Shown here: one piece after another, positions 3,058 through 31,592 of the stretch
Numbering within the stretch: the first letter of the stretch is position 1
Layout: the number at the start of each line of letters is the position of its first letter
Virus record (IMG/VR): IMGVR_UViG_3300017742_000027
Location: 1 to 41,703 of that record
Origin: a virus
Length of the DNA: 41,703 nucleotides
Strand: one strand, 5' to 3'
Program-made: the position numbers and the translations under genes
The notes under the pieces: generated by a model
What the model was told of the DNA's origin: nothing
Databases searched by the model: none
The model's input: the letters and a program-made list of their open reading frames with translations, nothing else

Positions 3058-3280
3058 AGAACTTATTAAAGTAGCTAAGGAACCTATTATTGATTTTGGT
3101 CCTGATATTTCTGCAGATAGATTAAAAAACGCAGCTGCAACTAAAAAACTAGCTATCTTTGATGCCTTTGAAATACTGTCTAAAATCAATGAAGAAGAAA
3201 ACATTATTGAAGGTAAAGTAGAACAAGAAACTAAAAAACCAAAAGAATTTAAAGGTTTTGCAGAAGGGAGGTCTAAATAA
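3002..3280 (+). CDS. Putative small terminase subunit / TerL-adjacent helical protein
   Basis: A 92-aa, mostly helical, lysine-rich protein placed directly before TerL, the usual site of the small terminase subunit, which recognises packaging sites on DNA. Residues 1-65 are predicted as three helices (METKKIKRNIIQAGRIAVEE..., DRLKNAAATKKLAIFDAFEIL), and the C-terminal tail is charged and flexible. No helix-turn-helix is clear, so the assignment depends on position. Its 5' end overlaps the GroES-like gene by 56 nt, and its stop overlaps the TerL start (TAATG). The only Met is the first residue, so this start is forced. Confidence 0.45.
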   Translation: METKKIKRNIIQAGRIAVEELIKVAKEPIIDFGPDISADRLKNAAATKKLAIFDAFEILSKINEEENIIEGKVEQETKKPKEFKGFAEGRSK

Positions 3281-5493
3281 TGTATCAGCAAAGTTTATAT
3301 AAAATATTAGATAATCACATTAAACCTAAAATACTTAAAAAAAATAATAAGTATAAGAAATGGGAGTATGGTTATAATATAGAACACGATATTGTAATTA
3401 TAAGTAGAACAGGTGAGATAAGTGACGTTGTAGAAATACAAAATTTAAAAATAGCCTTACCAAAAGCTAATGATATTTGTAAATTTAAATCTGATAGATT
3501 TGAATACAAACCTTTGCCAAAAGAATTAAAAAGAATTAAAACAATATTTGATTGGGAGGAATATCCGTTAGATTTTAAGGAAACATGGTATGATTACATT
3601 GATAAAGAATTTGCTCGTAGAGAAGAAGGTTTTTGGTTTTATAACAAAGACAACCCTACTTACATTACTGGCACTCATTATATGTACTTGCAGTGGAGTA
3701 AAATTGACGTTGGGAAGCCAGACTTTCGAGAGTCAAATAGATTATTCTTCATTTTCTGGGAAGCTTGCAAGGCAGATTCACGATCCTATGGGATGTGTTA
3801 CCTTAAGAACCGTAGATCTGGTTTCTCTTTCATGGCCTCAGGAGAGGTGGTTAATTTGGCGACCATATCCTCGGACTCGAGATATGGAATTTTATCTAAA
3901 TCTGGGCCTGATGCCAAGACGATGTTTACCGATAAAGTGGTACCCATATCAGTTAACTATCCCTTCTTTTTCAAACCGATCCAGGACGGTATGGACAGGC
4001 CTAAGACCGAGCTCGCCTACCGTGTCCCCGCAAGTAAACTTACCAGACGTAAGCTTACCGCAAACGAAACCGCACCGGACTTACAAGGTCTTGACACGAC
4101 CATCGATTGGAAAAACACCGGTGATAACTCCTATGATGGGGAGAAACTCAAACTCCTCGTCCACGATGAGAGCGGTAAATGGGAGAGACCGAACAACATC
4201 CTTAACAACTGGCGTGTTACGAAAACCACCCTTAGATTAGGTAGTAGAATTATTGGTAAATGCATGATGGGTTCAACTTGTAACTCATTAGACAAAGGTG
4301 GTGATAATTTTAAAAAATTATATTATGACTCAGATGTCACGAAAAGAAATGCAAATGGACAGACTCGTTCGGGACTCTATTCTTTGTTCATTCCTATGGA
4401 GTGGAATTACGAAGGATACATTGATTCTCATGGAATACCTGTCTTCGACACTCCGACCGACATTATTAAAGGACCGCAAGGAACACCTATAACATTAGGA
4501 GTTATAAATTACTGGCAAAACGAAGTTGACGGATTAAAAGATGATCAAGATGCTTTAAATGAATTTTATAGACAGTTTCCTAGAACTGAAGAACACGCGT
4601 TCAGAGATGAGGCTAAATCATCATTGTTTAATCTTACAAAGATATATGAGCAAATCGATTGGAACGCTGATCTAAAACACTCACCGATGGTTACTCAAGG
4701 TAATTTTCAGTGGTTAGGAGGAATAAAAGATACTTCTGTAATTTTTGTACCACAAAATAATGGTAGATTTTTTATATCATGGATACCTAAACAAAAAATG
4801 CAAAACAATGTAATTCATAAGTTAGGTAAAAAATATCCAGGAAATGAACACATAGGAGCATTTGGATGTGATAGTTATGATATATCTGGAACAGTAGATA
4901 GGAGAGGTTCTAAAGGATCTTTACACGGTTTAACTAAGTTTAGCATGGAAGATGTTCCGGCTAATCATTTTTTCTTAGAATACATAGCTAGACCACAAAC
5001 TGCAGAAATATTTTTTGAAGATGTGTTAATGGCTTGTATATTTTACGGTATGCCAATATTAGCAGAAAACAATAAACCTAGATTGTTATATCATTTTAAA
5101 AGACGAGGTTATAGAGGTTTTGCAATGAATAGACCTGATAAAATATATAACAAACTATCAATTACAGAAAGAGAAATAGGTGGAATACCTAACTCTAGTG
5201 AAGATATAAAACAAGCGCACGCTGCTGCTATTGAAAGCTACATAGAAACATATGTGGGTTTTCGCAGTGATAATACTCATGGTGATGTGTATTTTCAAAG
5301 AACACTGGAAGATTGGGCTAAGTTTGATATAAACAATAGAACTACTCATGATGCATCTATTAGTTCAGGATTAGCAATAATGGCTTGTAATAAAAATAAA
5401 TATAGACCTGTTCCAAAAATTGTAAGACAAAATTATAATTTAGGAATAAAAAAATTTGATAATAGTGGGTTGTTATCTAAAATTATAGATTAA
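3280..5493 (+). CDS. terL: Terminase large subunit (ATPase + nuclease)
   Basis: This is the 737-aa packaging motor that pumps DNA into proheads and cuts concatemers. The ATPase domain shows a Walker A-like KNRRSGFS (residues 176-183) and Walker B LLVHDE (acidic pair D296/E297). The nuclease (RNase H-like) domain has FGCDSYD (D531, D534) and the late acidic motif THDASISSGLAI (D691). The length is typical for TerL. The segment from about residue 128 to 320 (nt 3661-4240) has strikingly GC-rich codons: about 51 percent G+C at nt 3961-4200, against 20-30 percent in the flanks. The reading frame is intact and the motifs are conserved across it, so the gene should be functional. Portal follows immediately. 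Confidence 0.95.
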   Translation: MYQQSLYKILDNHIKPKILKKNNKYKKWEYGYNIEHDIVIISRTGEISDVVEIQNLKIALPKANDICKFKSDRFEYKPLPKELKRIKTIFDWEEYPLDFKETWYDYIDKEFARREEGFWFYNKDNPTYITGTHYMYLQWSKIDVGKPDFRESNRLFFIFWEACKADSRSYGMCYLKNRRSGFSFMASGEVVNLATISSDSRYGILSKSGPDAKTMFTDKVVPISVNYPFFFKPIQDGMDRPKTELAYRVPASKLTRRKLTANETAPDLQGLDTTIDWKNTGDNSYDGEKLKLLVHDESGKWERPNNILNNWRVTKTTLRLGSRIIGKCMMGSTCNSLDKGGDNFKKLYYDSDVTKRNANGQTRSGLYSLFIPMEWNYEGYIDSHGIPVFDTPTDIIKGPQGTPITLGVINYWQNEVDGLKDDQDALNEFYRQFPRTEEHAFRDEAKSSLFNLTKIYEQIDWNADLKHSPMVTQGNFQWLGGIKDTSVIFVPQNNGRFFISWIPKQKMQNNVIHKLGKKYPGNEHIGAFGCDSYDISGTVDRRGSKGSLHGLTKFSMEDVPANHFFLEYIARPQTAEIFFEDVLMACIFYGMPILAENNKPRLLYHFKRRGYRGFAMNRPDKIYNKLSITEREIGGIPNSSEDIKQAHAAAIESYIETYVGFRSDNTHGDVYFQRTLEDWAKFDINNRTTHDASISSGLAIMACNKNKYRPVPKIVRQNYNLGIKKFDNSGLLSKIID

Positions 5494-7887
5494 ATGAAAA
5501 GTATATACACGAATGGTAATAGTATTTTTCCTAGCCAAGTAGTTAGTGACGCAGAAAAAGCCAGTTGGGAATATGGTGAGAGAGTTGCTCAAGCTATAGA
5601 ACAAGAGTGGTTTAGTCAAGGTAGAACAAGTGGTAACAGATACTTGACTACTTGGAATAACTATAATAGATTAAGATTGTACGCGAGAGGTGAACAACCT
5701 ACTTCAAAATATAAAGACGAATTATCTATTAACGGTGATTTATCTTATTTAAATTTAGACTGGAAACCCGTGCCTATTATTTCAAAATTTGTAGACATAC
5801 TTACTAATGGTATTTCTAATAAAGAATATGATATAAATGCTTTTGCCCAAGATCCAGCTTCTTTACAAAAAAGAACTAATTACGCAGAGTTATTAGCTCA
5901 AGATATATTTGCTAGAGAGACTATGAATAAAATTAACGCTCAATTAGGTGAGAATTTATTCAACACTCAAGTACCAGAAGATCAGATGCCACAAACTCCA
6001 GAAGAACTGGAATTACACATGCAGTTGTCTTACAAGCAAAGTGTTGAGATAGCTGAAGAAGAGGTTATTAATCAAGTGTTAGATTATAATAAATGGGAGT
6101 TAACAAAACGTAGAATAAATTATGATTTAGTTACGTGTGGAATTGGAGCTGTTAAAACTGATTTTAATATATCTAATGGTATAACTATAGATTATGTAGA
6201 TCCAGCTTATTTAGTATACTCTTATACAGAAGATCCTAACTTTGAAGATATATATTATGTTGGTGAATTAAAAGCAGTTACGTTACCAGAAATAGCTAAG
6301 CAGTTTCCTAATATAGATGATTCTGTTTTAGAAAAAATACAAGAATATCAAGGTGATAAAACATACATGTATGGTTATGGTAATGGTCCATGGGATCAAA
6401 ACACTATTCCTTTATTATACTTTGAATACAAAACATATACCGATCAAGTTTTTAAAATAAAAGAAACAGATCAAGGTTTAATGAAAGCTATTGAAAAACC
6501 AGATACTTTTAATCCACCTGAAAATGATAACTTTGAAAGAGTAGGTAGAACTATTGAAACATTATATAGAGGTGTAAAAGTCTTAGGTACTAATATATTA
6601 TTAAGATGGGAGTTATGTCCTAACATGACTCGACCAATGGCAGATACTACTAAAGTAGAAATGAATTATGCTATATGTGCACCACGTATGTATAAAGGAC
6701 GTATTGATTCTACAGTGAGCAGAATAACTGGTTTTGCAGACATGATTCAAATAACTCATTTAAAACTACAACAAGTAGTAGCTAGAATGGTACCAGACGG
6801 TGTATTTTTAGATATGGACGGGTTAGCAGAGGTTGATCTTGGTAATGGAACAAACTATAATCCAGCTGAAGCTTTAAATATGTATTTTCAAACTGGTTCT
6901 GTTGTAGGTAGATCACTTACTCAAGATGGAGAGTTAAATAGAGGTAAAATACCTGTGCAAGAATTATCTACAGGATCTGGACAAGCTAAAATACAAAGTT
7001 TAATATCAACGTATAATTATTATTTACAAATGATAAGAGACGTTACAGGATTAAACGAAGCTAGAGATGGTGCTTTAGCCGATAAAGACACTTTAGTAGG
7101 TTTACAAAAAATTGCTGCACAAGCTTCTAATATAGCAACAAAGCATATTAACAATGCTAGTTTGTATTTAACTTTAAGAATGTGTGAAAACATATCTAAA
7201 AAAGTTAATGATATGTTAGATTATCCGTTAACGGCAAACGCTTTAAATCAAAGCATTACGGTTTTTAATACTAAAACGCTGCAAGGTTTAGAAGAATTAA
7301 ATCTACACGATTTTGGTATTTTCTTAGACCTTGAACCAGACGAGGAAGAAAAAGCAAAGCTTGAACAAAACATACAAGTAGCTTTATCAAGTGGTGGTGT
7401 AGATTTAGAAGACGCTATTGAGATAAGACAAATACGTAATTTAAAATTAGCTAATCAAATGCTAAAAATGAAGCGTAAGCGTAAGTTGCAAAGAGAAAGA
7501 CAAATGCAAGCTGAAATGAGTCAACAACAAGCTCAGGCAAATTCTCAAGCATCTCAAGCAGCGGCAGAAGCAGAGGTTCAAAAACAACAAGCTTTAACTA
7601 GTGAAAAAGTAAACTTTGAACAAGCTAAGTCTCAGTTTGAAATACAACGTATGCAAACTGAAGCTGAAATTAAACGTCAGTTGATGGCTGAAGAGTTTAA
7701 TTATCAATTACAATTAGAACAAGTAAAAAATCAACGCGAGTCTAAAAAAGAGCAATCAATTGAAGATCGTAAAGATAAAAGAACAAGAATAGCTGGCACA
7801 CAACAAAGTCAAATGATAGATCAAAGAAAAAATGATTTATTACCAATTAACTTTGAAGCTCAAAGTGGGCAACAACCAACTATTTAG
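5494..7887 (+). CDS. Portal protein
   Basis: A 797-aa protein directly downstream of TerL (adjacent codons), with the size and layout of a podovirus-type portal, the dodecameric ring through which DNA enters and leaves the head. The core includes the conserved YNRLRLYARGEQ and DWKPVPIISKFVDIL segments (about residues 50-100), a long central region, and a stretch resembling the portal stem and clip (LQMIRDVTGLNEARDG). From about residue 640 the C-terminus becomes a long Gln/Glu/Lys/Arg-rich helix (QRERQMQAEMSQQQAQ...). This is consistent with a barrel extending into the capsid, as in long-barrel portals. Assignment rests on position, length and architecture. Confidence 0.88.
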   Translation: MKSIYTNGNSIFPSQVVSDAEKASWEYGERVAQAIEQEWFSQGRTSGNRYLTTWNNYNRLRLYARGEQPTSKYKDELSINGDLSYLNLDWKPVPIISKFVDILTNGISNKEYDINAFAQDPASLQKRTNYAELLAQDIFARETMNKINAQLGENLFNTQVPEDQMPQTPEELELHMQLSYKQSVEIAEEEVINQVLDYNKWELTKRRINYDLVTCGIGAVKTDFNISNGITIDYVDPAYLVYSYTEDPNFEDIYYVGELKAVTLPEIAKQFPNIDDSVLEKIQEYQGDKTYMYGYGNGPWDQNTIPLLYFEYKTYTDQVFKIKETDQGLMKAIEKPDTFNPPENDNFERVGRTIETLYRGVKVLGTNILLRWELCPNMTRPMADTTKVEMNYAICAPRMYKGRIDSTVSRITGFADMIQITHLKLQQVVARMVPDGVFLDMDGLAEVDLGNGTNYNPAEALNMYFQTGSVVGRSLTQDGELNRGKIPVQELSTGSGQAKIQSLISTYNYYLQMIRDVTGLNEARDGALADKDTLVGLQKIAAQASNIATKHINNASLYLTLRMCENISKKVNDMLDYPLTANALNQSITVFNTKTLQGLEELNLHDFGIFLDLEPDEEEKAKLEQNIQVALSSGGVDLEDAIEIRQIRNLKLANQMLKMKRKRKLQRERQMQAEMSQQQAQANSQASQAAAEAEVQKQQALTSEKVNFEQAKSQFEIQRMQTEAEIKRQLMAEEFNYQLQLEQVKNQRESKKEQSIEDRKDKRTRIAGTQQSQMIDQRKNDLLPINFEAQSGQQPTI

Positions 7888-7894
7888 TATTAAT

Positions 7895-7919
7895 TATTTA
7901 ATTATATTATATTATGGCA
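7895..7919 (+). repeat. 25-nt AT-rich leader/start repeat, copy 1
   Basis: The 25 nt ending in the first codons of the scaffold gene (TATTTAATT...ATTATGGCA) are identical to 10636-10660 in front of the gene after the capsid. The element spans the spacer and the ATG. It could be a shared translation-initiation leader or part of a late promoter; sequence alone does not decide. Confidence 0.7.
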
Positions 7920-9125
7920 GAAAAAAAAGCGGCCGTAGAGGTCAAGCAAGAAGGTGAATTTACTTTAAAAGGTAAAATAAAACCAAAAAGAAAGGCAAAA
8001 GATTTAGGTAAAACTAACACTGAGCCTGTAAAAATGGAGATGAAAAAACCTATAGAACAAAAGGTAGAAACTCCTAAAATTGATTTAACTAAAAAAGAAG
8101 ACGATGCCGTTCAAGAGCGAAAAACAGAGGAAGTACCTGTGGGCAACGAACCCAAAGTTGGCACAGAAGTGGACAAAGAAGTACGGGTCAGCGATACAGA
8201 TGCTAATGAAGAATCTCCGCTCCAAGTAATTGAGGAGATAACTGAAGAAGTTAAACCAGTTGAAGTAAAAAAACAAGATACTCCGATAATTAAAATGCCT
8301 GAATTACCAGAAAATGTAGAAAAGCTGGTAACATTTATGAATGAAACAGGTGGTACGGTTGAAGATTACGTAGAGCTTAATAAAGATTATACTAAGCTAG
8401 ACAACGATCAATTGTTGAAAGAGTATTTAAGAAAAACAAAACCTCATTTAGACTCAGAAGACATTAATCTTATAATGGAAGATTATAGTTTTGATGAAGA
8501 ATTAGATGAGCAAAAAGATATACGAAGAAAAAAATTAGCTTATAAAGAAGCTGTTGCTAACGCTAAAAAAGATTTAGAAAATAAAAAATCTAAATATTAT
8601 GCTGAAATAAAGCAAAGACCTGGTGTTACGCAAGAGCAACAAAAAGCGATGGATTTTTTTAATCGTTACAATAAACAGCAAGAAAATATAAAGCAGTCTC
8701 AGGAAAATTTTAAACAAAAAACTAGCGATTTATTTAATACTAATTTTGAAGGTTTCGATTATACGGTAGGAGATAAAAGATTTAGATATAAGTTAAAAGA
8801 TCCTAAGGCAACTGCTAATTCACAATCTAATATAGAAAACTTTGTAAACCGATTTTTAGACAAAGATGGAAATATTGGAGATACTGCGGGTTATCATAAA
8901 GCTTTATATGCTGCGATGAATGCTGACAAGCTAGCTTCTCATTTTTATGAGCAAGGTAAAGCAGACGGTGTTAAAAACATAGTTAAACAATCTAAAAACC
9001 CAGCTACGGATGCGCCAAGGCAAGTTGCCAGCGGGGATGTCTACGTTAGCGGTTTTAAGGTAAAAGCTATTAGTGGAGCAGATTCATCAAAATTAAAAAT
9101 CAAAAAACGAACATTTAATAATTAA
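7914..9125 (+). CDS. Putative capsid scaffolding protein
   Basis: The 403-aa protein between portal and capsid genes has the features of a scaffold that guides prohead assembly and then leaves or is cleaved. It has a disordered Lys/Glu/Val/Pro-rich N-terminus (residues 1-125), a charged helical middle with coiled-coil character (about 190-290, LDEQKDIRRKKLAYKEAV...), and a basic C-terminus (KLKIKKRTF) that could contact the capsid shell. No catalytic motif is visible. Residues about 64-105 are encoded by a locally GC-rich stretch (about 48 percent) in which a different frame encodes a recognisable small phage protein (see 8104-8229). Assignment is by position and composition. Confidence 0.75.
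   Translation: MAEKKAAVEVKQEGEFTLKGKIKPKRKAKDLGKTNTEPVKMEMKKPIEQKVETPKIDLTKKEDDAVQERKTEEVPVGNEPKVGTEVDKEVRVSDTDANEESPLQVIEEITEEVKPVEVKKQDTPIIKMPELPENVEKLVTFMNETGGTVEDYVELNKDYTKLDNDQLLKEYLRKTKPHLDSEDINLIMEDYSFDEELDEQKDIRRKKLAYKEAVANAKKDLENKKSKYYAEIKQRPGVTQEQQKAMDFFNRYNKQQENIKQSQENFKQKTSDLFNTNFEGFDYTVGDKRFRYKLKDPKATANSQSNIENFVNRFLDKDGNIGDTAGYHKALYAAMNADKLASHFYEQGKADGVKNIVKQSKNPATDAPRQVASGDVYVSGFKVKAISGADSSKLKIKKRTFNN
8104..8229 (+). CDS. Nested out-of-frame MPFKS-type small phage protein (41 aa)
   Basis: In the +1 frame inside the scaffold gene an ATG opens a 41-codon frame encoding MPFKSEKQRKYLW, NPKLAQKWTKKYGS and a basic tail ending LRSK. This matches a small basic protein pattern I recognise from many phages (MPFKSxxQRxYLWxxxPxxAxxW), of unknown function. 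The frame coincides almost exactly with a GC-rich island (about 48 percent over 8101-8220) in an otherwise AT-rich gene. The host frame here encodes a low-complexity acidic segment that could tolerate overprinting. It is either a live nested gene or a captured cassette kept as coding filler. The similarity is by recall, not search; expression is unproven. Confidence 0.6.
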   Translation: MPFKSEKQRKYLWATNPKLAQKWTKKYGSAIQMLMKNLRSK

Positions 9126-9136
9126 AATTTAAAATT

Positions 9137-10576
9137 ATGGCTTTAAATCCCCAGTTTGGTACTATTGTACCAAGCCAAGTACAAGAAGTCTTACAAACTA
9201 ACTATTTACAGTGGACTGATCCTGCTGCAGCTGATTTTACATCATTTGCTCAACAGTATTTACCAGAGATCTACGAAGCTGAAGTTGAAAGATATGGTAA
9301 TAGAACTTTATCTGGATTCTTAAGAATGGTTGGGGCGGAGCTTCCAATGACAAGTGACCAAGTAATCTGGTCTGAACAAAATAGATTACATATTGCATAT
9401 GATAACTGTACATTTGTTAGTGCTACAGGTATCATTACACTTAACCCAGGTGCTGTTGCAGGAGTAAACAATGTTATTTCTGTAAATGCTACTGTTGTAG
9501 TAATGGACGACTTCGGAAACGAAGCTAAAGCTCTTGTTACTGCTAGTACTCCTGGTGCTGCAGGTACAATTACTGTATCCACATACACGGCTGCTAACTT
9601 AGCAGGTGCTGGACTAGTTGGTAATGTAAAAGTATTCGTATATGGTTCTGAGTATAGAAAAGGATCTATTACTCCTAACTACGATGCTGCTACACAACCA
9701 GATGGATACATTAGTGTTGACCCAGCGTTTACTCAATTTTCTAACCTACCTGTAATTATCAGAAACAAATACGTAGTAAATGGTTCTGATACTGCTCAAA
9801 TTGGTTGGGTAGAAGTTGCTACTGAAGATGGAACTGGAGGATACTTATGGTATCTAAAGGCTGAATCTGAAACTAGATTAAGATTTGAAGATTATTTAGA
9901 AATGATGTGTGTAGAAGGTGAATTAGTTGATGCTGCTGTATCTCCTATCACTGGATTAAAAGGAACTCAAGGTTTATTTGCTGCTATTGAAGATAGAGGT
10001 AATGTACAAGTTGGGTTTGCTGCAGCTACAGGTATCAGTGATTTCGATGATATTCTTAGAAACTTAGATACTCAGGGTGCGATTGAAGAGAACATGTTAT
10101 TCTTAGACAGACAAACTGCTCTTGATTTTGATGATATGCTTGCTGCTATATCAGCTGGATCTGCAGGTGGTACTGCTTTTGGTTTATTTGAAAACTCAGA
10201 AGAAATGGCGTTAAACTTAGGTTTTAGCGGTTTCAGAAGAGGTTCATATGACTTTTACAAAACAGATTGGAAATACTTAAACGATGCTTCTACAAGAGGT
10301 GCGCAAGTTGGACCAAACTCGATTGAAGGAGTTTTAATTCCAGCTGGTACTACAACTGTTTATGACCAAATTTTAGGAACTAACATCAGAAGACCTTTCT
10401 TACACGTAAGATATAGAGCTTCACAAACTGATGATAGAAGAATGAAGTCTTGGTTAACAGGTTCTGTTGGTGGTGCATTTACTAGTGATCTTGATGCTAT
10501 GGAAGTTAACTTCCTATCAGAAAGATGTTTAGTAACTCAAGCTGCTAACAACTTTGTACTATTCAAAGGAGTGTAA
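9137..10576 (+). CDS. Major capsid protein
   Basis: The 479-aa product follows the scaffold gene at the expected place for the main shell protein (HK97 fold). The N-terminal segment (PSQVQEVLQTNYLQWTDPAAADFTSFAQQYLPEIYEAEVERYG) fits the N-arm and E-loop region. Residues about 95-180 form a Gly/Ala/Thr/Val-rich beta insertion (VNATVVVMDD...GTITVSTYTAAN) that could be an Ig-like surface domain. The C-terminal half (LEMMCVEGELVD..., RRPFLHVRYRAS...) fits the A and P domains. The gene is richer in C-ending codons than its neighbours, as expected for the most highly expressed gene. A strong terminator hairpin lies 15 nt after the stop. Confidence 0.85.
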   Translation: MALNPQFGTIVPSQVQEVLQTNYLQWTDPAAADFTSFAQQYLPEIYEAEVERYGNRTLSGFLRMVGAELPMTSDQVIWSEQNRLHIAYDNCTFVSATGIITLNPGAVAGVNNVISVNATVVVMDDFGNEAKALVTASTPGAAGTITVSTYTAANLAGAGLVGNVKVFVYGSEYRKGSITPNYDAATQPDGYISVDPAFTQFSNLPVIIRNKYVVNGSDTAQIGWVEVATEDGTGGYLWYLKAESETRLRFEDYLEMMCVEGELVDAAVSPITGLKGTQGLFAAIEDRGNVQVGFAAATGISDFDDILRNLDTQGAIEENMLFLDRQTALDFDDMLAAISAGSAGGTAFGLFENSEEMALNLGFSGFRRGSYDFYKTDWKYLNDASTRGAQVGPNSIEGVLIPAGTTTVYDQILGTNIRRPFLHVRYRASQTDDRRMKSWLTGSVGGAFTSDLDAMEVNFLSERCLVTQAANNFVLFKGV

Positions 10577-10635: not shown

Positions 10636-10660
10636 TATTTAATTATATTATATTATGGCA
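10636..10660 (+). repeat. 25-nt AT-rich leader/start repeat, copy 2
   Basis: Identical over 25 nt to 7895-7919, again ending in ATGGCA of a structural gene. It lies directly downstream of a terminator, so this spot needs either read-through or a new promoter. That makes a promoter or ribosome-loading role plausible. Confidence 0.7.
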
Positions 10661-22823: not shown

Positions 22824-25800
22824 ATGAATAATATTAATGAAATACTAGGAGAATTTGATCCTAGTTTATTATTTACAACACCTACTGATGAAGAGAAAAG
22901 TAACACTGAAGTCATTGATGCAAGCAACGACGTTGATGGTGATACAATGGGTACTACTATTCCTGCGCCTGAAAATATAACAACAAACGTAGAGGTTGGT
23001 AACACTGATATTGAAACGGTTCAACCACCAGTGACAACAGATGAGCAAAACGAAAAGATACAAAAAGATATAAACAAGGAAGTAGAGGTTCAACCTTGGG
23101 ATAATATAGAATTAATCACAGAAAATTCTACGGTTGATAATAGTGACTCTTATTTTACTCAACAAACTGTTCAAGATTTACAAAAAAAAATAAATAAACT
23201 TTCTGGCAAAAACGCTTTTGAAGATTTAGAAGGTGATGAAATAGAAAAGCAAAATAATATAAACCTTATTGAACAAGGCTTAGATCCAAGCTTTGATATA
23301 GACGATGTAAACACCTGGTTTTTAACAGCTGAAGAACAAAAAAGACGACTAGACACTCATAAAATGGTGGTGCCTGTAAGAAATGATAAGTTCAAGACAG
23401 CCACAGATCTTGTAAATTCAATAACCAGTGAAACCTCTGAAGAAGAAAAAGAAGAAATATTAAATCAAGCTACAACAATAGTTAGAACGCTAGACAAAAA
23501 GTATGGTGAGATTCAAGGAGACGCAAATGCTCAAACAGCAAAAATATTAGAACCCTCATATAATGGTAGTACAGACTTTACCAATGAAGATGATGTTTTA
23601 GCTTTTTATGAAAACGCTTTTAAAACAGTTGTAGATAAAGATAAAGCTTTAACTGATATACAAGATGTTATATTAAAAGAAAACGAAGAATTGTTATTAG
23701 AAAAACAAGCACAACTGCAAGCTTCTTTAAGTCAATACCAATCTTATCAATTTGAAGAAAATTACTTTACAGGTATAAGCAGAGCTTTAACAGGTAAAGG
23801 TATAGAGCATGACTCTTTTATATTTAGTCCTCAACAAGAAGAACAAGAAGCTTCTTTGCTTTTAGCTAATAAAGAATACACAGATTTTGTTAATAACTTA
23901 ATTACATCAGATCCTAGATTTAAAGAAAGAATTACAATTCTAAATGAAAGCGTAGCTCAGTCTATAGATCCACAAATAACAGCTGCTATGCAGGCTCAAC
24001 AAGATAAATTAACAGAAGAACAAAAAGCAGCGATCAGAGCAAGAAGACTAAACTCTAGTATAATTGGCGCTACAAGTAAGTTTGATGATTTAGGACTTAA
24101 TTTTAGTGTTGATGGTTTAAAGTCTTATGTAAGTGGAAGCAACTCTTTAAGCCCATTTAATCCATACAGGATAGTTGAAAATATTTTGGGTTATGAGACA
24201 ATGTCTTTAAGCAACAGCTTGTACACAGGTATTAGTAATATAAACTTAGACGACAGTACAGGTCTTATTCTTATGAATAAACTATTAGACGATCAAGATC
24301 GATATGATTCGTTTGTAATGGATGAAGACGAATATAATAATAGAATAAATAAAAGAGAGCACACTGGAGCTACAGCTGCTAATAAATTTTATTTAAGATC
24401 TAAGAAAAGATTATTACCAGAAGGTGACCAATCTTTAGTTTACTGGGACAACAAAAGAGGAGAAATAGTTACTTATATAAGTAATTATTCTGACGGTAAA
24501 CAAATATATACAGGTGTAAGCGCTTTAGGAAACTCGTTTAAAAAACCTAGTGAAAATTACATAAAAAGTATTGAAGATAAAAACGGTTGGAAATTAATGA
24601 CTTTTGCAGAAGCTAAAGATTTAATGAAAGCTAAAAATAATGATTTAAGTAATCAAGTAATGGATCACATGGTTGGTATCATGCAGAAAGAGCATGAAGC
24701 TGAGTTGTTTTCTGAAGAACAGTTTACTGACTTTTTATCAAACGTAATGTCTGGTAATGTAGCTGATGCTCTTAGGTTTATTCCTAAAACTATTTTAAAG
24801 CAAGTTCCTTACATGGCAGCTAACCTTTTCTCTGCAGGAACGTATACTTTATTTCAAGAAGGTGGTAATTTAACTTTTGACTTAATACAAAATGCCGCAG
24901 CTGCTGATTTAGGTATTGATGTTAACGATTTAACAACAGAGCAGATGTTAAGTTATATGGAAAATAATGACGATGCTGTTAGCAATAAGATAATGGTAGG
25001 TGTCACAGGTGGTGCCGCAATAGCTGGTTTAGAAAGAGCTGGTATTGGGTATATGATAAAGTCTATGGATTTTGCTAAGTCTGGTTTTTCACAATTATTA
25101 AAAGGAAATGTAAGAAAAGCTTTATCACAAAGTAAGAAGGTTCTTGCTAATCAAGTAAAAACTGGATTAAATGAAAGTTTAACTGAAGGTTTACAAACAG
25201 GCGTAGATCAAATTATAACAGGTAGATTTGATCCTATGGAATACGTAAACTCTATGGGTGAAGGATTTATAGGAGGTGTTGCTTTACCTATTGGTGGTGC
25301 TTTTGTTTCTTCTACTATAAATAGAATACAAAATTTAGCAAAAAATACAAGGTTAAATATTAGAGATCCTAAGTTTTACGAAAAAGCAAACAAGGTATAC
25401 GAACTAGCTAGAACTGATTTAGACGCTAAATTAAAAGCGGGAACTATAACTGAAGTAGAATATGATAAACAATTAAATCAAGTTTCTGGAGACAGAGACG
25501 CTTTGTTAAAAATACCTAAACATTTTACAGTTGAAGCTAAGCAAGAAAGTTTTGAGCTGTTTAAAGAACTAACAACATTAAGAGATGCTGTGGCCAAAAG
25601 CGAGCCTTCTATGGTAGAAAGCGAAACTGCAAGAATAAAAGATATTGAAGCTCGACTTAAAGAGCTAAGTGCTGAGCAAGGTTTAATAAAACAAATAGGT
25701 CAAGTAGAAGGATTAATTGATCCTAATGGTAATCTATCAATGAGATCTTTTGATACAACTATAGAGGCAGATGCTTTTATTGAAGAACAAAATGAAACAG

Positions 25801-28800
25801 GTAATTGGGATAGTACAGCTTCTAGCGATGGTAATGGAACTATATTACAAAACAAAGAAACCGGTCAACAATTAATTATAGTAGATAAACAAAACTCTGC
25901 TAAAGTTTTAGATATAGCAGTAGCAGATCATGAGTTTTTACATGCGTTAATGTTCCAAACAGTTAAAGACAACCCTGCGGCTCAACAAGCTCTGGGGTCT
26001 TCTCTTTTATCTTATATAGAAAAAATTGATGCTGATGGATTAATGTCAGATAATTTAAAAGAAAGATATAAAGTATATAAAAACAAACCTATAAACGATC
26101 AATACGAAGAAGCTCTTAATTTCTTAGCTGACGCTTTTATTAATGAAGAAATAGCTGTTAACGATGGTATTCTTGATAAGTTAGGTAGAATGGTTAGAAA
26201 CTTGCTAGGAACTCTAGGCGTACCCGTTAAGTTTAACAGTGGTCAAGATGTTTATAATTTTGTAAAAGATTATGCAGTAGCTAGAAAAAAAGGTAAAGGA
26301 TTAAATAAATCTCAAAGAAAACTGTTAACCACAAGTGCTATTGTAGGTAAAGATTTAGGCAAAGGTGTAACAAGTCAAATAAGTGATATAATAAAAAACC
26401 AATCTGGTGATATAAACATTGGCAAACAGAGTAAAAGAACTGCTCAAGAATTAATGTTACAATATCAAGAACTTGGCACTGAAATGAATATTGATTTGCA
26501 AGAAGATTTAATAAGTCAATATTATTCTTTAGGTTTAAAAGCTATGGGTTATGATAGAGCCGCTGGAGATATAAAAACAGATGAAGCTTTAAACTTTTTA
26601 AATAGTGAATTTCCTAGTATTGCTCGTAATTATAATTCAGCTGATGGATCTTTAAGTAATTACATGAGAAACACTATTGGCCCAAGAGGTAAAGGATTTT
26701 TTCAAACTGAAATAGAAAGAAAGAAAAGAACTGTAAGTAAAGAAAAACTTGAAGATAAAGGTAGACAAATAGTAGATACAGATACGCAAGTTGATTTTGA
26801 TCAACGTGTTAAAGAAGATATAGGTAGAGCTAAAGTATATCCATCATCTATAAAGGTTATAGAAAACAATATAACAAGTGAAGTAAGAGCAGAGCAAACT
26901 ACTAATATTAAAGATGATATAAATAGAGCTATAGCTAGTGATAAAACAAATCCTAAGCAAACAGCTAAAGCTATTATTGAGCAGACTAAAACTAAAGAGT
27001 ATAGATCTTCTATTAAAAAAGCTTTAGGAAAGTGGAATAGTGATCAGTATAATAACAATGTTGATAATCTTATTACTAGGTCGTTTATTAAAACATTGCC
27101 AATAGCTCAAATAAAAAGAAGGTTTGGTAAGTTATTTAATATAAAAGAAATAGATAGAGTACCAACTGTTAAAATTGAAAACGGTAAACGTACTGATTTT
27201 AAAAAGCCAGTTTATTTAATACCTGAAATTACAACTGAAAAATTAAATGAAATAAAAAATTATTTCAAAGCAGGAGAAAAAAGACACCAATCACTTATGA
27301 GTTTAATTGCTGAAGGCGTAGCGGTTGAGCAAATGGAAGAAATAAAAAGTGATAAAGATTTCATGAATGACCTACAAAGTAGATTAGAAATTAAAAACTC
27401 TAATCTTACGGCTGATCAATTTATAGACGAAGTTATTTTTAATATTGATAAAAGAAACTTAGAAGATAAATCTTTTGACATAGCTAAAGCTAGTACTAGA
27501 TCTAAACCTGTTTCAAAAGTTAGTAAAAATTATAGTAAAGTAGTTAAAGCTAGTATTGCAAAACAATTGCAAGATTATGATTTAAAGCTATATCCAACAT
27601 TTGAAAATAAATTTTTACATGATAAGATGAGTGCTGATCAAGTAAAAGGAAGAAACGAAAGTGTAATTAGAAGTTTGCCTGAACTTGGTTTAGACTTTTT
27701 TGAATATATATCTTCTAGAGGTGATGAAGCTTACGCTCCTGGTATCGCTAATAGCAGTAGAAGTATATTTAATAAAAAAGGAAACGTAAACGAATTAAGA
27801 GATTTAATTAACGCTCCTTTATCTGGTGAGTTTATTAAAAATAATCCTTCGTATGTAAAAAAATATACAAAAACTGTTAACGGTGAAGTGTATTTAGATA
27901 AAGATAAGTTACGAGTTGGCACTGTTTTAAGCGCTAATGACATGAAGATAATAAGAGAAGCTGAAGCTAATCAATCTTCTTACGCTAATTTAAGTCCAGA
28001 AAAAAGAATAGATAGATTAAAAGATCCAAATTTTAGAAATAATCAAGCAGAAAAAACTAATATATTAAAGAAAATACTCAATGTTATAAGTAAAGACGTA
28101 AGAGTAGACAAAAAAATAGTACCGGCTAGAATGGAATTTTGGGCAACTTGGATAAATAGTCAAGTTAATAATTCAAAACATCCAATTAGAGTTTTAGCTC
28201 CTATTGAATTCTTTTCTTTATCTAAAATACCAAAACGTAGCACGGTTGAAGGATATAAATTAAATAAAAAAGGTGAAGTAATTTCTGTAGATATTTTAAA
28301 CTATGTTGCAGAACATTTAATGCCAGCTAATAACACAGCTAAAATAGCTGTTGATCTTATATACAACAACACTGTTAACAAAGATTTTAGTCTTATAAAA
28401 GATAATTATGTTCAAGGTCAATTATTAAAAACAGACGACAACTACGTAAATGATAAAAACATAGGTGAAGGTGGTTTTAAATCTCAATTTCCTAGTGAGT
28501 TTTGGAATATGGACAAACCAAATGTTTGGGTTAGATATTTATTAGGTAATCCTAATATAAATCTAAATGAATACGTTACTTATAAAAACGGTAAAGTAAT
28601 GACTATTGCTGAAAGTTTAGGATTACCTTTAGGTAACTTAGAAAACAATCCTGACAACGTTCAGTTTCAAAATAAATTACTTAAAGAAATTTTATTAGAA
28701 AACAAAAGTGTTAAAAGTGCTCAAGCAGAATTTAAAACCGCTGCGCCAACTAACGCTAAACAAAGTAAAAGAGTTAAGATAAATAAGAAAACTTTATTTC

Positions 28801-31592
28801 CACTTATAAACGCTAATGGAACTACAGAGTCTTCTATTGAGGCGATGGGTGGCGCTGATAAAGCTGCTGAACTGGCTAGAGCTTTAGATACACCTTCAAA
28901 AGGTATTAGCGTGTTTGATTTTGACGACACGCTAGCTTACAGCAATAGTAAGGTTATTGTTAAAATGGAAGATGGAACTACAAGAAAAATAACACCGGCT
29001 GAGTTTGCTAGTGAAGCAGAAACGTTGGAACAAAACGGTGCTGAATTTAATTTTGATGAATTTAACAAAGTTGTTGATGGTAAAAAAGGACCATTAGCTG
29101 ATCTAGCTTTAAAACGTCAAGACAAGTTTGGTAGTGGAGATATATTTGTATTAACAGCAAGACCACAAGCTTCTGCTGAAAGTATTAAAATGTTTTTAGA
29201 TGGTATTGGTTTAAACTTACCTATTGAAAATATAACTGGCTTAGAAAATGGATCAGCTGATGCAAAAGCTTTATGGGTGTTGGATAAAGCAGCAAAAGGT
29301 TATAATAACTTTTATTTTGCAGACGATGCTATAGCTAATGTTCAAGCTGTTAAAAATATACTTGACCAAATAGATGTTAAGTCAAAAGTTCAAATAGCTA
29401 AACAAAGTAAAAGAGAAAGAATAAGTAAAGAGTTTAATGTTATTATAGAACAACAAAGTGGTAAAGAATGGTTTAAAACTTATTCTACAGCTAGAGCTAA
29501 AGTTCAAGGTAAAGCAAAGAATAAATTTGAATTTTTTATTCCTCCATCAGCAGAAGATTTTGTAGGTTTAATGTATAAAATTTTACCTAAAGGAAAAAAT
29601 GGTGATAGAGCTTTGGTTTGGATAAAAGAAAATCTTTTAGATCCATATAATAAAGCTGAACAAGAAGTTATTGCAGCAAAAATATCTGTTGCTAATGATT
29701 TTAATGAGCTAAGAAAAAGTATAGATAATATTCCTAAAAACTTACAAAAACAAGCTGGATATAGTAATTTTACATGGTCTCAAGCTTTACGCGTGTACAT
29801 GTGGAATATGCAGGACATGGATATACCAGGATTATCTGTAAGAGATAAAAATGCTTTAGTAAAACTTATTGAAGATAAGGTAGATATGAAAGTGTTTGCT
29901 GAAAAAATAATTTTCATACAAAAAGATAAAGAATATCCTGCGCCTTCAAGTAATTGGGTTGGTGGTAGTATTACTAGTGATATAATAAATAGTATACAAA
30001 AAACTTTTAGAAAACAAACTTTACAACCTTGGCAAGAAAATGTTGATGCTATATTTTCTGAAGACAACATTAATAAATTAGAGGCGTTATACGGTTCTAA
30101 TTATATAACAGCTTTAAAAAATATTCTTAATAGAATGAAACGTGGTAACAACAGGCCTGTAAGTTCTAGTAAACAAGTTGAAAACGTTATTGATTGGCTT
30201 AACAATTCTGTAGGTACTATAATGTTCTTGAATAGAAAATCAGCTTTGTTGCAGCTTATATCTTCTGTTAATTTTATTAATTGGTCTGATAATAATATTG
30301 TAGCCGCTGGTAAAGCTTTTGCTAACCAACCTCAATATTGGAAAGACGTTATGTATTTAATGAACTCTGATTATTTAGTTCAAAGACGTAATGGTATGAA
30401 GATCAATGTAGCTGAATCAGAAATAGCTGATGCTTCAAAAAAAGGTGGATTAAAAGGAGTAATAGCTTATTTATTAAATAAAGGATTTGTATTCACAAGA
30501 ATAGCAGATAGTTTAGCTATTGCTACTGGTGGTGCAACTTTTTATAGAAATAGAGTAAATGCGCTGCAAAAACAAGTAAATATAGATACAGGTAAACCTT
30601 ATACTGAATCTGAAGCAAGTACTAAAGCTTTTGATGATTTTTATCAAATATCTGAAGAAAGTCAACAGTCAAGTAGAGCCGATAGAATATCAATGCAGCA
30701 AGCTAGTGGATTAGGTAGATTAGTATTAAACTTTGCTAACACACCTATGCAATACGCTAGAATTATAAAAAAATCAACTAAAGATTTATTAGCTGGTAGA
30801 GGTGATTGGAAAACTAATTTAAGTAAAATAGTATATTACGGAGCTGTTCAAAACTTAATATTTAGCGCTTTACAAGCTGCGGTATTTACTCTTTTATTTG
30901 ATGAAGAAGAAGAAAAGAAAGACAGAACAATTTCAGATAAAGCAGAAGGTATAGGTTTTAGTATGTTAAGCTCGTTGTTAAGAGGTTTAGGATATGGTGG
31001 TGCTTTAGTAGACACAATCGTAGCAGTAAGTAGAGAAGTAGCGGTACAATCAAATAAAAAATCACCAGATTTTGAAGAAGCTGTGTGGAGTGTGTTTGAT
31101 TTTTCACCAGCTATAGATTCTAAAGTAAGAAAACTTAGAAGCGCTGCTAATACTTTTAAGTATAATAAAAAAGAAATTGCAAGAAGAGGGTTTAATTTAG
31201 AAAATCCAGCTTATTTAGCTTTAGGTCAAATTGTATCGTCTACATTTAACGTACCTTTAGATAGAGCTTTACGTATGGCAATGACTTTAAAACAAGCTTC
31301 GGATCAAGACGTTGCTCTTTGGCAAAGAATAGCTTTGTTAGCTGGTTACAGTAGTTGGTCTGTTAATTTACCATATTGGGGAACTACAACTACTATTGAA
31401 AGAGAAACTAAGGAAGATGAAGAGATAAAAACAAAATACAAAAAAGAAGCTATTAGATTAAAAAAAATAGGTTACAAAAGGATACCAATGACTAAAGGTA
31501 AACCAAAAGGTAAACTAAATGTTGATTTTATAGAGGTAGCAAGACCTACCGGTAGCATTGAATATTGGTTAACTCCAGTTAAAAACAATTAA
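22824..31592 (+). CDS. Giant 2922-aa multidomain (polyvalent-like) internal virion protein
   Basis: This is the largest gene in the window. Residues 1-620 are acidic and coiled-coil rich. About 650-830 are hydrophobic (PYMAANLFSAGTYTLF, GGAAIAGLERAG, GGVALPIGGAFVSS). A zincin motif DHEFLHALMF (H1036-E-x-x-H1040) has a downstream acidic helix near E1095. KQSKR boxes stand at 1201, 1979 and 2193. A sigma-factor-like stretch lies around 1206-1330. A HAD-like phosphohydrolase module lies between the second and third boxes (DFDDT with D2032/D2034, VLTARP at 2109, FADD at 2165). The C-terminal 450 residues match a module common in very large environmental-phage proteins, with hydrophobic segments near 2670 and 2715. 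By position it replaces T7 gp16, the ejectosome protein. Enzymatic roles on entry into the host are inferred. Confidence 0.8.
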   Translation: MNNINEILGEFDPSLLFTTPTDEEKSNTEVIDASNDVDGDTMGTTIPAPENITTNVEVGNTDIETVQPPVTTDEQNEKIQKDINKEVEVQPWDNIELITENSTVDNSDSYFTQQTVQDLQKKINKLSGKNAFEDLEGDEIEKQNNINLIEQGLDPSFDIDDVNTWFLTAEEQKRRLDTHKMVVPVRNDKFKTATDLVNSITSETSEEEKEEILNQATTIVRTLDKKYGEIQGDANAQTAKILEPSYNGSTDFTNEDDVLAFYENAFKTVVDKDKALTDIQDVILKENEELLLEKQAQLQASLSQYQSYQFEENYFTGISRALTGKGIEHDSFIFSPQQEEQEASLLLANKEYTDFVNNLITSDPRFKERITILNESVAQSIDPQITAAMQAQQDKLTEEQKAAIRARRLNSSIIGATSKFDDLGLNFSVDGLKSYVSGSNSLSPFNPYRIVENILGYETMSLSNSLYTGISNINLDDSTGLILMNKLLDDQDRYDSFVMDEDEYNNRINKREHTGATAANKFYLRSKKRLLPEGDQSLVYWDNKRGEIVTYISNYSDGKQIYTGVSALGNSFKKPSENYIKSIEDKNGWKLMTFAEAKDLMKAKNNDLSNQVMDHMVGIMQKEHEAELFSEEQFTDFLSNVMSGNVADALRFIPKTILKQVPYMAANLFSAGTYTLFQEGGNLTFDLIQNAAAADLGIDVNDLTTEQMLSYMENNDDAVSNKIMVGVTGGAAIAGLERAGIGYMIKSMDFAKSGFSQLLKGNVRKALSQSKKVLANQVKTGLNESLTEGLQTGVDQIITGRFDPMEYVNSMGEGFIGGVALPIGGAFVSSTINRIQNLAKNTRLNIRDPKFYEKANKVYELARTDLDAKLKAGTITEVEYDKQLNQVSGDRDALLKIPKHFTVEAKQESFELFKELTTLRDAVAKSEPSMVESETARIKDIEARLKELSAEQGLIKQIGQVEGLIDPNGNLSMRSFDTTIEADAFIEEQNETGNWDSTASSDGNGTILQNKETGQQLIIVDKQNSAKVLDIAVADHEFLHALMFQTVKDNPAAQQALGSSLLSYIEKIDADGLMSDNLKERYKVYKNKPINDQYEEALNFLADAFINEEIAVNDGILDKLGRMVRNLLGTLGVPVKFNSGQDVYNFVKDYAVARKKGKGLNKSQRKLLTTSAIVGKDLGKGVTSQISDIIKNQSGDINIGKQSKRTAQELMLQYQELGTEMNIDLQEDLISQYYSLGLKAMGYDRAAGDIKTDEALNFLNSEFPSIARNYNSADGSLSNYMRNTIGPRGKGFFQTEIERKKRTVSKEKLEDKGRQIVDTDTQVDFDQRVKEDIGRAKVYPSSIKVIENNITSEVRAEQTTNIKDDINRAIASDKTNPKQTAKAIIEQTKTKEYRSSIKKALGKWNSDQYNNNVDNLITRSFIKTLPIAQIKRRFGKLFNIKEIDRVPTVKIENGKRTDFKKPVYLIPEITTEKLNEIKNYFKAGEKRHQSLMSLIAEGVAVEQMEEIKSDKDFMNDLQSRLEIKNSNLTADQFIDEVIFNIDKRNLEDKSFDIAKASTRSKPVSKVSKNYSKVVKASIAKQLQDYDLKLYPTFENKFLHDKMSADQVKGRNESVIRSLPELGLDFFEYISSRGDEAYAPGIANSSRSIFNKKGNVNELRDLINAPLSGEFIKNNPSYVKKYTKTVNGEVYLDKDKLRVGTVLSANDMKIIREAEANQSSYANLSPEKRIDRLKDPNFRNNQAEKTNILKKILNVISKDVRVDKKIVPARMEFWATWINSQVNNSKHPIRVLAPIEFFSLSKIPKRSTVEGYKLNKKGEVISVDILNYVAEHLMPANNTAKIAVDLIYNNTVNKDFSLIKDNYVQGQLLKTDDNYVNDKNIGEGGFKSQFPSEFWNMDKPNVWVRYLLGNPNINLNEYVTYKNGKVMTIAESLGLPLGNLENNPDNVQFQNKLLKEILLENKSVKSAQAEFKTAAPTNAKQSKRVKINKKTLFPLINANGTTESSIEAMGGADKAAELARALDTPSKGISVFDFDDTLAYSNSKVIVKMEDGTTRKITPAEFASEAETLEQNGAEFNFDEFNKVVDGKKGPLADLALKRQDKFGSGDIFVLTARPQASAESIKMFLDGIGLNLPIENITGLENGSADAKALWVLDKAAKGYNNFYFADDAIANVQAVKNILDQIDVKSKVQIAKQSKRERISKEFNVIIEQQSGKEWFKTYSTARAKVQGKAKNKFEFFIPPSAEDFVGLMYKILPKGKNGDRALVWIKENLLDPYNKAEQEVIAAKISVANDFNELRKSIDNIPKNLQKQAGYSNFTWSQALRVYMWNMQDMDIPGLSVRDKNALVKLIEDKVDMKVFAEKIIFIQKDKEYPAPSSNWVGGSITSDIINSIQKTFRKQTLQPWQENVDAIFSEDNINKLEALYGSNYITALKNILNRMKRGNNRPVSSSKQVENVIDWLNNSVGTIMFLNRKSALLQLISSVNFINWSDNNIVAAGKAFANQPQYWKDVMYLMNSDYLVQRRNGMKINVAESEIADASKKGGLKGVIAYLLNKGFVFTRIADSLAIATGGATFYRNRVNALQKQVNIDTGKPYTESEASTKAFDDFYQISEESQQSSRADRISMQQASGLGRLVLNFANTPMQYARIIKKSTKDLLAGRGDWKTNLSKIVYYGAVQNLIFSALQAAVFTLLFDEEEEKKDRTISDKAEGIGFSMLSSLLRGLGYGGALVDTIVAVSREVAVQSNKKSPDFEEAVWSVFDFSPAIDSKVRKLRSAANTFKYNKKEIARRGFNLENPAYLALGQIVSSTFNVPLDRALRMAMTLKQASDQDVALWQRIALLAGYSSWSVNLPYWGTTTTIERETKEDEEIKTKYKKEAIRLKKIGYKRIPMTKGKPKGKLNVDFIEVARPTGSIEYWLTPVKNN

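Follow-up and report, generated by a model that had tools for sequence, protein, structure and literature searches.

Two nested genes of phage lambda offer points of comparison for the locus analyzed here. The Nu3 scaffold of lambda is nested in gene C, where a head-assembly protein arises from an internal start within the gene of another head protein. Rz1, a lysis lipoprotein, has the product of its own host gene as its partner and is not known to have changed that host gene. The location of Rz1 within Rz, the lambda spanin genes, illustrates that nested genes are a known kind of arrangement in phages (PMC5295617; reviewed in PMC8227390). The locus described here lies in a 41,703-nucleotide stretch (IMG/VR record IMGVR_UViG_3300017742_000027, positions 1 to 41,703; hereafter the window) from a marine bacteroidete phage of a podovirus lineage. 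It is similar to Rz1/Rz in that a small phage gene occupies another frame of a larger one, although Rz1 shows no homology to the window microprotein, and it differs from Nu3, which is in frame with its host gene, because the window microprotein is encoded in the +1 phase and is unrelated to the host protein. A nested phage gene that changes its host gene is an unusual variant of this known kind of arrangement.

The host gene (7914..9125, 403 amino acids) is located between the portal gene directly upstream (5494..7887; phrog_6547, E 9.8e-144) and a downstream gene encoding a capsid-like virion structural protein (9137..10576; phrog_13704, E 5.9e-90), all three on the plus strand, and the terminase gene occupies 3280-5493 (phrog_6681). 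Because the relatives of the 403-amino acid protein are annotated only as "structural protein", the term scaffold is used here as a positional name, for a gene placed between those of the portal and major capsid proteins. The cultured relatives of the window phage infect Flavobacterium and other Flavobacteriia. Directly 5' of the scaffold start, at 7890-7913, there is an AT-rich string, TTAATTATATTATATT, that is highly conserved in 49 relatives, several of its positions at 100%, and that is a candidate promoter or initiation signal; the frames before the window ORF at 10655 suggest a similar string there.

The nested gene (8104..8229, plus strand) starts with ATG and encodes 41 amino acids, MPFKSEKQRKYLWATNPKLAQKWTKKYGSAIQMLMKNLRSK, followed by a stop codon. 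According to the ORF list it lies wholly within the ORF at 7914-9125, in a different frame (phase +1), and its DNA also encodes scaffold residues ~64-105. The length of such an ORF was rejected as evidence, since an ATG-initiated ORF of at least 41 codons overlapping in another frame is present in 36% of the synonymous shuffles of the window scaffold gene; it is homology, conservation, and selection that carry the case. The earlier note had described a GC-rich segment within an AT-rich scaffold gene, and the composition agrees with that description, including its count of 30/60 G+C for the line 8101-8160, except that the line 8161-8220 contains 29/60 rather than 28/60; the neighboring lines contain 15/60 and 18/60. 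The G+C content of the 126-bp segment is 0.476 against ~0.32 around it, a value reached by 0.7% of the window positions, and the family as a whole shows 0.467 in the overlap versus 0.286 upstream and 0.321 downstream. A wobble T preceding a Lys, Arg, Glu, or Asp codon of the microprotein would create a stop in the scaffold frame, and hence the high G+C content is plausibly a result of dual coding, together with amino acid composition, rather than the mark of a recent import.

The same note had proposed that the +1 frame resembles a small phage protein normally encoded by a stand-alone gene, and homology searches with the 41-residue translation bear this out. tblastn revealed stand-alone ORFs in Phage C75C1 (75% identity over 24 amino acids, E 1e-4), Streptomyces phage FlowerPower (gp48, E 2e-3), and phage 023Pt_psg01 (E 5e-3). 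The microprotein also matches PHROG 1375, a 70-amino acid phage family of function not known (E 3.7e-4), as do two nested relatives, at E 2.3e-4 and 0.05. This likeness is partial, because residues 3-26 align with profile positions 17-40 of 70, a third of the profile, and the Cys and Ile-Ala-Met subfamilies of the microprotein give no match to it. The genes of Phage C75C1 (34579), 023Pt_psg01 (28335), Prochlorococcus phage P-RSP2, Synechococcus phage S-CBS2, and FlowerPower (gp48) have in common with the window copy the core MPF/MPY-K-S-x-x-Q-R-x-Y...P..A..W, but they are free-standing, whereas the window copy is nested; all of them are uncharacterized, and in several records the stand-alone relatives are not annotated at all. 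Searches of Pfam, NCBIfam, and PDB sequences with the microprotein returned nothing usable, and the PDB profile matches were discarded as repeat-protein artefacts with per-domain E values over 100.

The conservation of the nested gene was analyzed in an unbiased set of 80 IMG/VR loci that were found by the scaffold protein query only, and not by the microprotein. A relative of the microprotein, starting with MPF, MPI, or MPL and carrying the same motif, is present in 72 of these 80 scaffold homologues (~62 distinct microproteins), in phase +1 in 72/72 and with its start in the same alignment column in 71 of the 72 carriers. A larger set, which is biased towards carriers because it was partly ascertained through microprotein searches, contains the nested gene in phase +1 in 249 of 259 scaffold loci and in 206 of 216 distinct scaffold ORFs. 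Thus, of the earlier proposal that a small gene was inserted into or overprinted on the scaffold gene, the nested dual coding stands, but the arrangement is conserved across the homologues and is not a one-off of this phage. The microproteins are 36-52 residues long, and those of the unbiased set can be grouped into three subfamilies, MPFKSEKQRxYLWxxxPEIAxxW, MPFKHKRQMIAMLLSKxPKTVATAKKWLKKYG, and MPFKxxAQxxACYAQNNPKWDCKKW; M1, P2, and Q8 do not vary at all, and F3, P17, and W23 hardly vary.

No trace of the microprotein was detected in 8 of the 80 homologues (L008-L012, L027, L076, and L079), and because these are scattered among carriers on the scaffold tree, which was read without rows L338-L341 (where the wrong ORF had been chosen), they are most simply explained as losses. 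In the larger set six changes of presence or absence were counted, and two of its ten loci scored as absent are L106 and L316. In L316 (2298-2408) the microprotein is interrupted by an in-frame stop (ATAK*WLKKYG) and the scaffold frame is unbroken, which makes it a candidate for an early loss of the nested gene. In L106 (3001-4041) the microprotein shares its frame with the C-terminal part of the scaffold, whose N-terminal part runs into a stop shortly past the overlap, an arrangement that is either a real frameshift fusion or an assembly indel. The nested microprotein was likewise not seen in cultured relatives from Cellulophaga, Tenacibaculum, and Maribacter. The losses, the cultured relatives lacking the gene, and the stop in L316 together indicate that this capsid system does not, in general, require the microprotein. 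The subfamilies change 22 times on the scaffold tree (gains and losses included), compared with 106 times when the labels are shuffled, and these repeated changes indicate that the nested piece has been exchanged somewhat independently of the surrounding gene.

To compare selection in the two frames, changes at 69 distinct loci of the main subfamily were counted on a tree of the downstream scaffold sequence, with 268 downstream codons as the control. Per site, the first, second, and third codon positions of the scaffold required 10.3, 5.4, and 4.5 changes in the overlap and 6.0, 3.8, and 13.2 downstream; substitutions in the overlap fall at scaffold codon position 1, which is the wobble base of the microprotein. 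The ratio of nonsynonymous to synonymous rates, obtained by parsimony with an assumed transition weight of 3 and expressed relative to opportunity rather than by a fitted overlapping-gene model, was 0.41 for the microprotein frame and 2.28 for the scaffold frame in the overlap, whereas the control downstream gave 0.34 for the scaffold frame and 1.75 for the phantom +1 frame. Within the overlap, the scaffold frame therefore looks like a phantom frame, except for the absence of stops: the scaffold phase is open in 91 of 91 genes, against 0.13% expected if the microprotein sequences were encoded by synonymous codons chosen at random, and the third phase is open in 1 of 91. The +1 frame is thus conserved beyond chance and under purifying selection in a host frame that is kept coding, which strongly supports dual coding. 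Both frames are maintained for different reasons, the microprotein for its sequence and the scaffold for passage; the constrained reading is that of the microprotein, and the passage of the scaffold frame through it is tolerated, its residues there forming an unconstrained linker. Since purifying selection sits in the microprotein frame and the scaffold frame is only stop-free, the direction implied by a gene overprinted on the scaffold is probably the reverse of the real one.

Immediately upstream of the nested gene there is a putative A-rich translation initiation region (8090..8103, plus strand). Among 78 distinct sequences of the family, A is found with a frequency of 0.90 at -3, 0.99 at -6, 0.95 at -11, 0.85 at -12, and 0.90 at -13, and most of the other sites around these adenines are near saturation. 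They match the initiation determinants A-3, A-6, A-12, and A-13 established in Flavobacterium johnsoniae by ribosome profiling and reporters (PMC6847099), although the conserved adenines also encode scaffold residues. In 12 copies nested in another gene (see below), A is present at -3, -6, -12, and -13 in 11, 12, 8, and 11 cases, respectively. Ribosomes would initiate within the scaffold mRNA, using an AUG that follows a bacteroidete-type A-rich region, and the nested microprotein is probably translated as a separate product.

The microprotein is also found outside the scaffold gene. Elemoviruses of Flavobacterium and podovirus ctfjg026 (MW202828) harbor a scaffold homologue without the ORF, and in them the microprotein (MPFKSKAQMKACYSQDNPKWDCKKW...) is nested in +1 within a giant structural gene of ~3,700-3,860 codons; the copy in elemoF, an elemovirus that infects Flavobacterium sp. 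BAL314, lies at 52379-52504 and its predicted peptide reads MPFKSKAQMKACYSQDNPK.... The giant structural genes L090:3740-14824 and L089:6405-17984, of 3,694-3,859 codons, are hosts of the nested gene. Ten further distinct IMG/VR cases of +1 nesting in giant virion-protein genes were identified, and the genomes with a giant-hosted copy have scaffold genes without the nested ORF. The variability of the giant host frame over the nested part in these cases is 0.33, 0.136, and 0.110 at codon positions 1, 2, and 3, the same signature as in the scaffold overlap. When compared with one another, the giant proteins can be aligned only around the nested gene. That of elemoF carries DUF3293 (E 1e-12) and matches no other Pfam or PHROG family. 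The window itself contains a 2,922-codon ORF (22824-31592) without a PHROG match, and no similarity between it and the giant genes of elemoviruses was detectable. Seven more +1 copies occur in ORFs of 1,010-2,029 codons, five of which are similar to the giant genes; the respective contigs, binned with Aliivibrio, Cytophagales, Chitinophagaceae, Pseudomonadales, TMED88, Sulfuritalea, and Cloacimonadota genomes, are probably phage contigs.

Free-standing copies are located downstream of portal or head-tail-adaptor genes (L117, L128, L131, L139, and L166), often beginning at the end of the upstream gene, and in 023Pt_psg01 the free copy lies between the head-tail connector and a head gene. Near the copy downstream of the head-tail adaptor gene in L128, psbA (photosystem II D1) is present at 3673-4749. 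In other cases the microprotein forms the N-terminus of a larger protein, encoded after the portal gene (L141) or after a phrog_3287 virion protein gene (L110, L116, L121, and L130). The motif (e.g. MPFQSEKQRRYLWANEPEIARDWTDTYGS) is found at the N-terminus of longer proteins in L110:3001-4017, L112:3001-4179, L121:2672-3814, L130:3001-5394, and L141:3001-3558, several of them with GGRIG-like repeats and directly downstream of portal or virion genes, and in these fusions it looks like a portable N-terminal module. Tail and tape-measure families of PHROG gave weak matches to the fused proteins, and these were set aside. A single copy per genome was found in all carriers checked (9 scaffold-hosted, 12 giant-hosted, and 13 free or fused), many of these records being fragments.

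On these sequence comparisons, 8104-8229 is very probably a genuine dual-coding gene in an alternative frame, a degree of confidence that refers to the gene and not to its role. A chance ORF, kept free of stops by the scaffold composition and resembling a microprotein by coincidence, would be compatible with the 36% of shuffles containing an overlapping ORF this long and with a short product that has a Lys-rich tail, but it is refuted by the conservation of the ORF in one phase and one column in 72 of 80 homologues, by a selection signature located in the +1 frame, and by the existence of independent nested and stand-alone relatives. That the segment is instead conserved as a nucleic acid element, involved in packaging, RNA structure, or a recombination hotspot, might be suggested by its distinctly high G+C content, its presence in two different genes, and the exchange of subfamilies. 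Nevertheless, the variation follows a period of three bases whose wobble falls in the +1 frame, and subfamilies with different DNA have an amino acid motif in common, which leaves this explanation with next to no probability. The arrangement in L106, where microprotein and scaffold C-terminus are read in one frame, raises the question of whether the +1 frame is made by programmed frameshifting as part of a scaffold variant rather than as a separate protein. This is very unlikely, because an invariant ATG followed by Pro is preceded by a conserved initiation region, the free-standing homologues begin at the same Met, and the copies nested in an unrelated gene also start at ATG.

With regard to the origin of the dual-coding gene, unrelated phages have the microprotein as a free gene, and selection acts in its frame; the microprotein is therefore most likely the older coding sequence, through which the scaffold reading frame most likely came to run. 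The scaffold ORF may have been extended over a neighboring microprotein gene, or that gene may have been inserted along with its initiation region. That nesting occurs in two unrelated genes favors at least one move, in either direction. As a tentative model, which we regard as possible rather than probable, a portable dual-coding gene with its own initiation region would move between unrelated virion genes, scaffold-position and giant, of bacteroidete and other phages, always in +1, with synonymous codons tuned for an open host frame and with subfamilies replacing one another in the same slot.

The microprotein is strongly basic (mean net charge +10.9), and AlphaFold2 predicts helices at 6-15 and 17-39 (mean pLDDT 78, pTM 0.45). 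A Foldseek search of this model against PDB gave no similar fold, and the best matches in BFVD were uncharacterized phage microproteins and one 503-amino acid protein. The product would thus be a basic helix-break-helix microprotein made together with the head proteins. Its portal-side position across unrelated phages favors an accessory of head assembly or packaging, and from this synteny we tentatively suggest a one-copy accessory that may act on portal, scaffold, or capsid, or bind DNA. A serious alternative, to which we give only slightly less credence, is that the same nested gene has another role, its product being a small protein that binds DNA or RNA or is directed at the host, and that profits from late expression. 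The very basic and helical character of the microprotein is in agreement with such a role, its scattered losses and the exchange of subfamilies (at least 22 class changes) would be in keeping with a partner that changes, and it is also nested in giant multi-domain virion genes, one with DUF3293; the portal-adjacent synteny in unrelated phages argues against it.

Text searches of the literature, whose coverage is incomplete, returned no paper for the microprotein motif and nothing relevant on nested genes in phage scaffold genes, and this supports novelty only weakly. Examples of one gene lying wholly inside another in tailed phages are mostly isolated ones, and here hundreds of sequences are available and selection is measurable in both frames. 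Two unrelated genes act as hosts to one and the same nested gene, which also occurs free, and the existing annotations that were examined miss the nested copy. The locus provides a concrete, unannotated microprotein of the head region for study, and with it the questions about the origin of overlapping genes, i.e. the relative age of the two frames, the survival of a second frame, and the way in which a nested gene moves, become directly testable.
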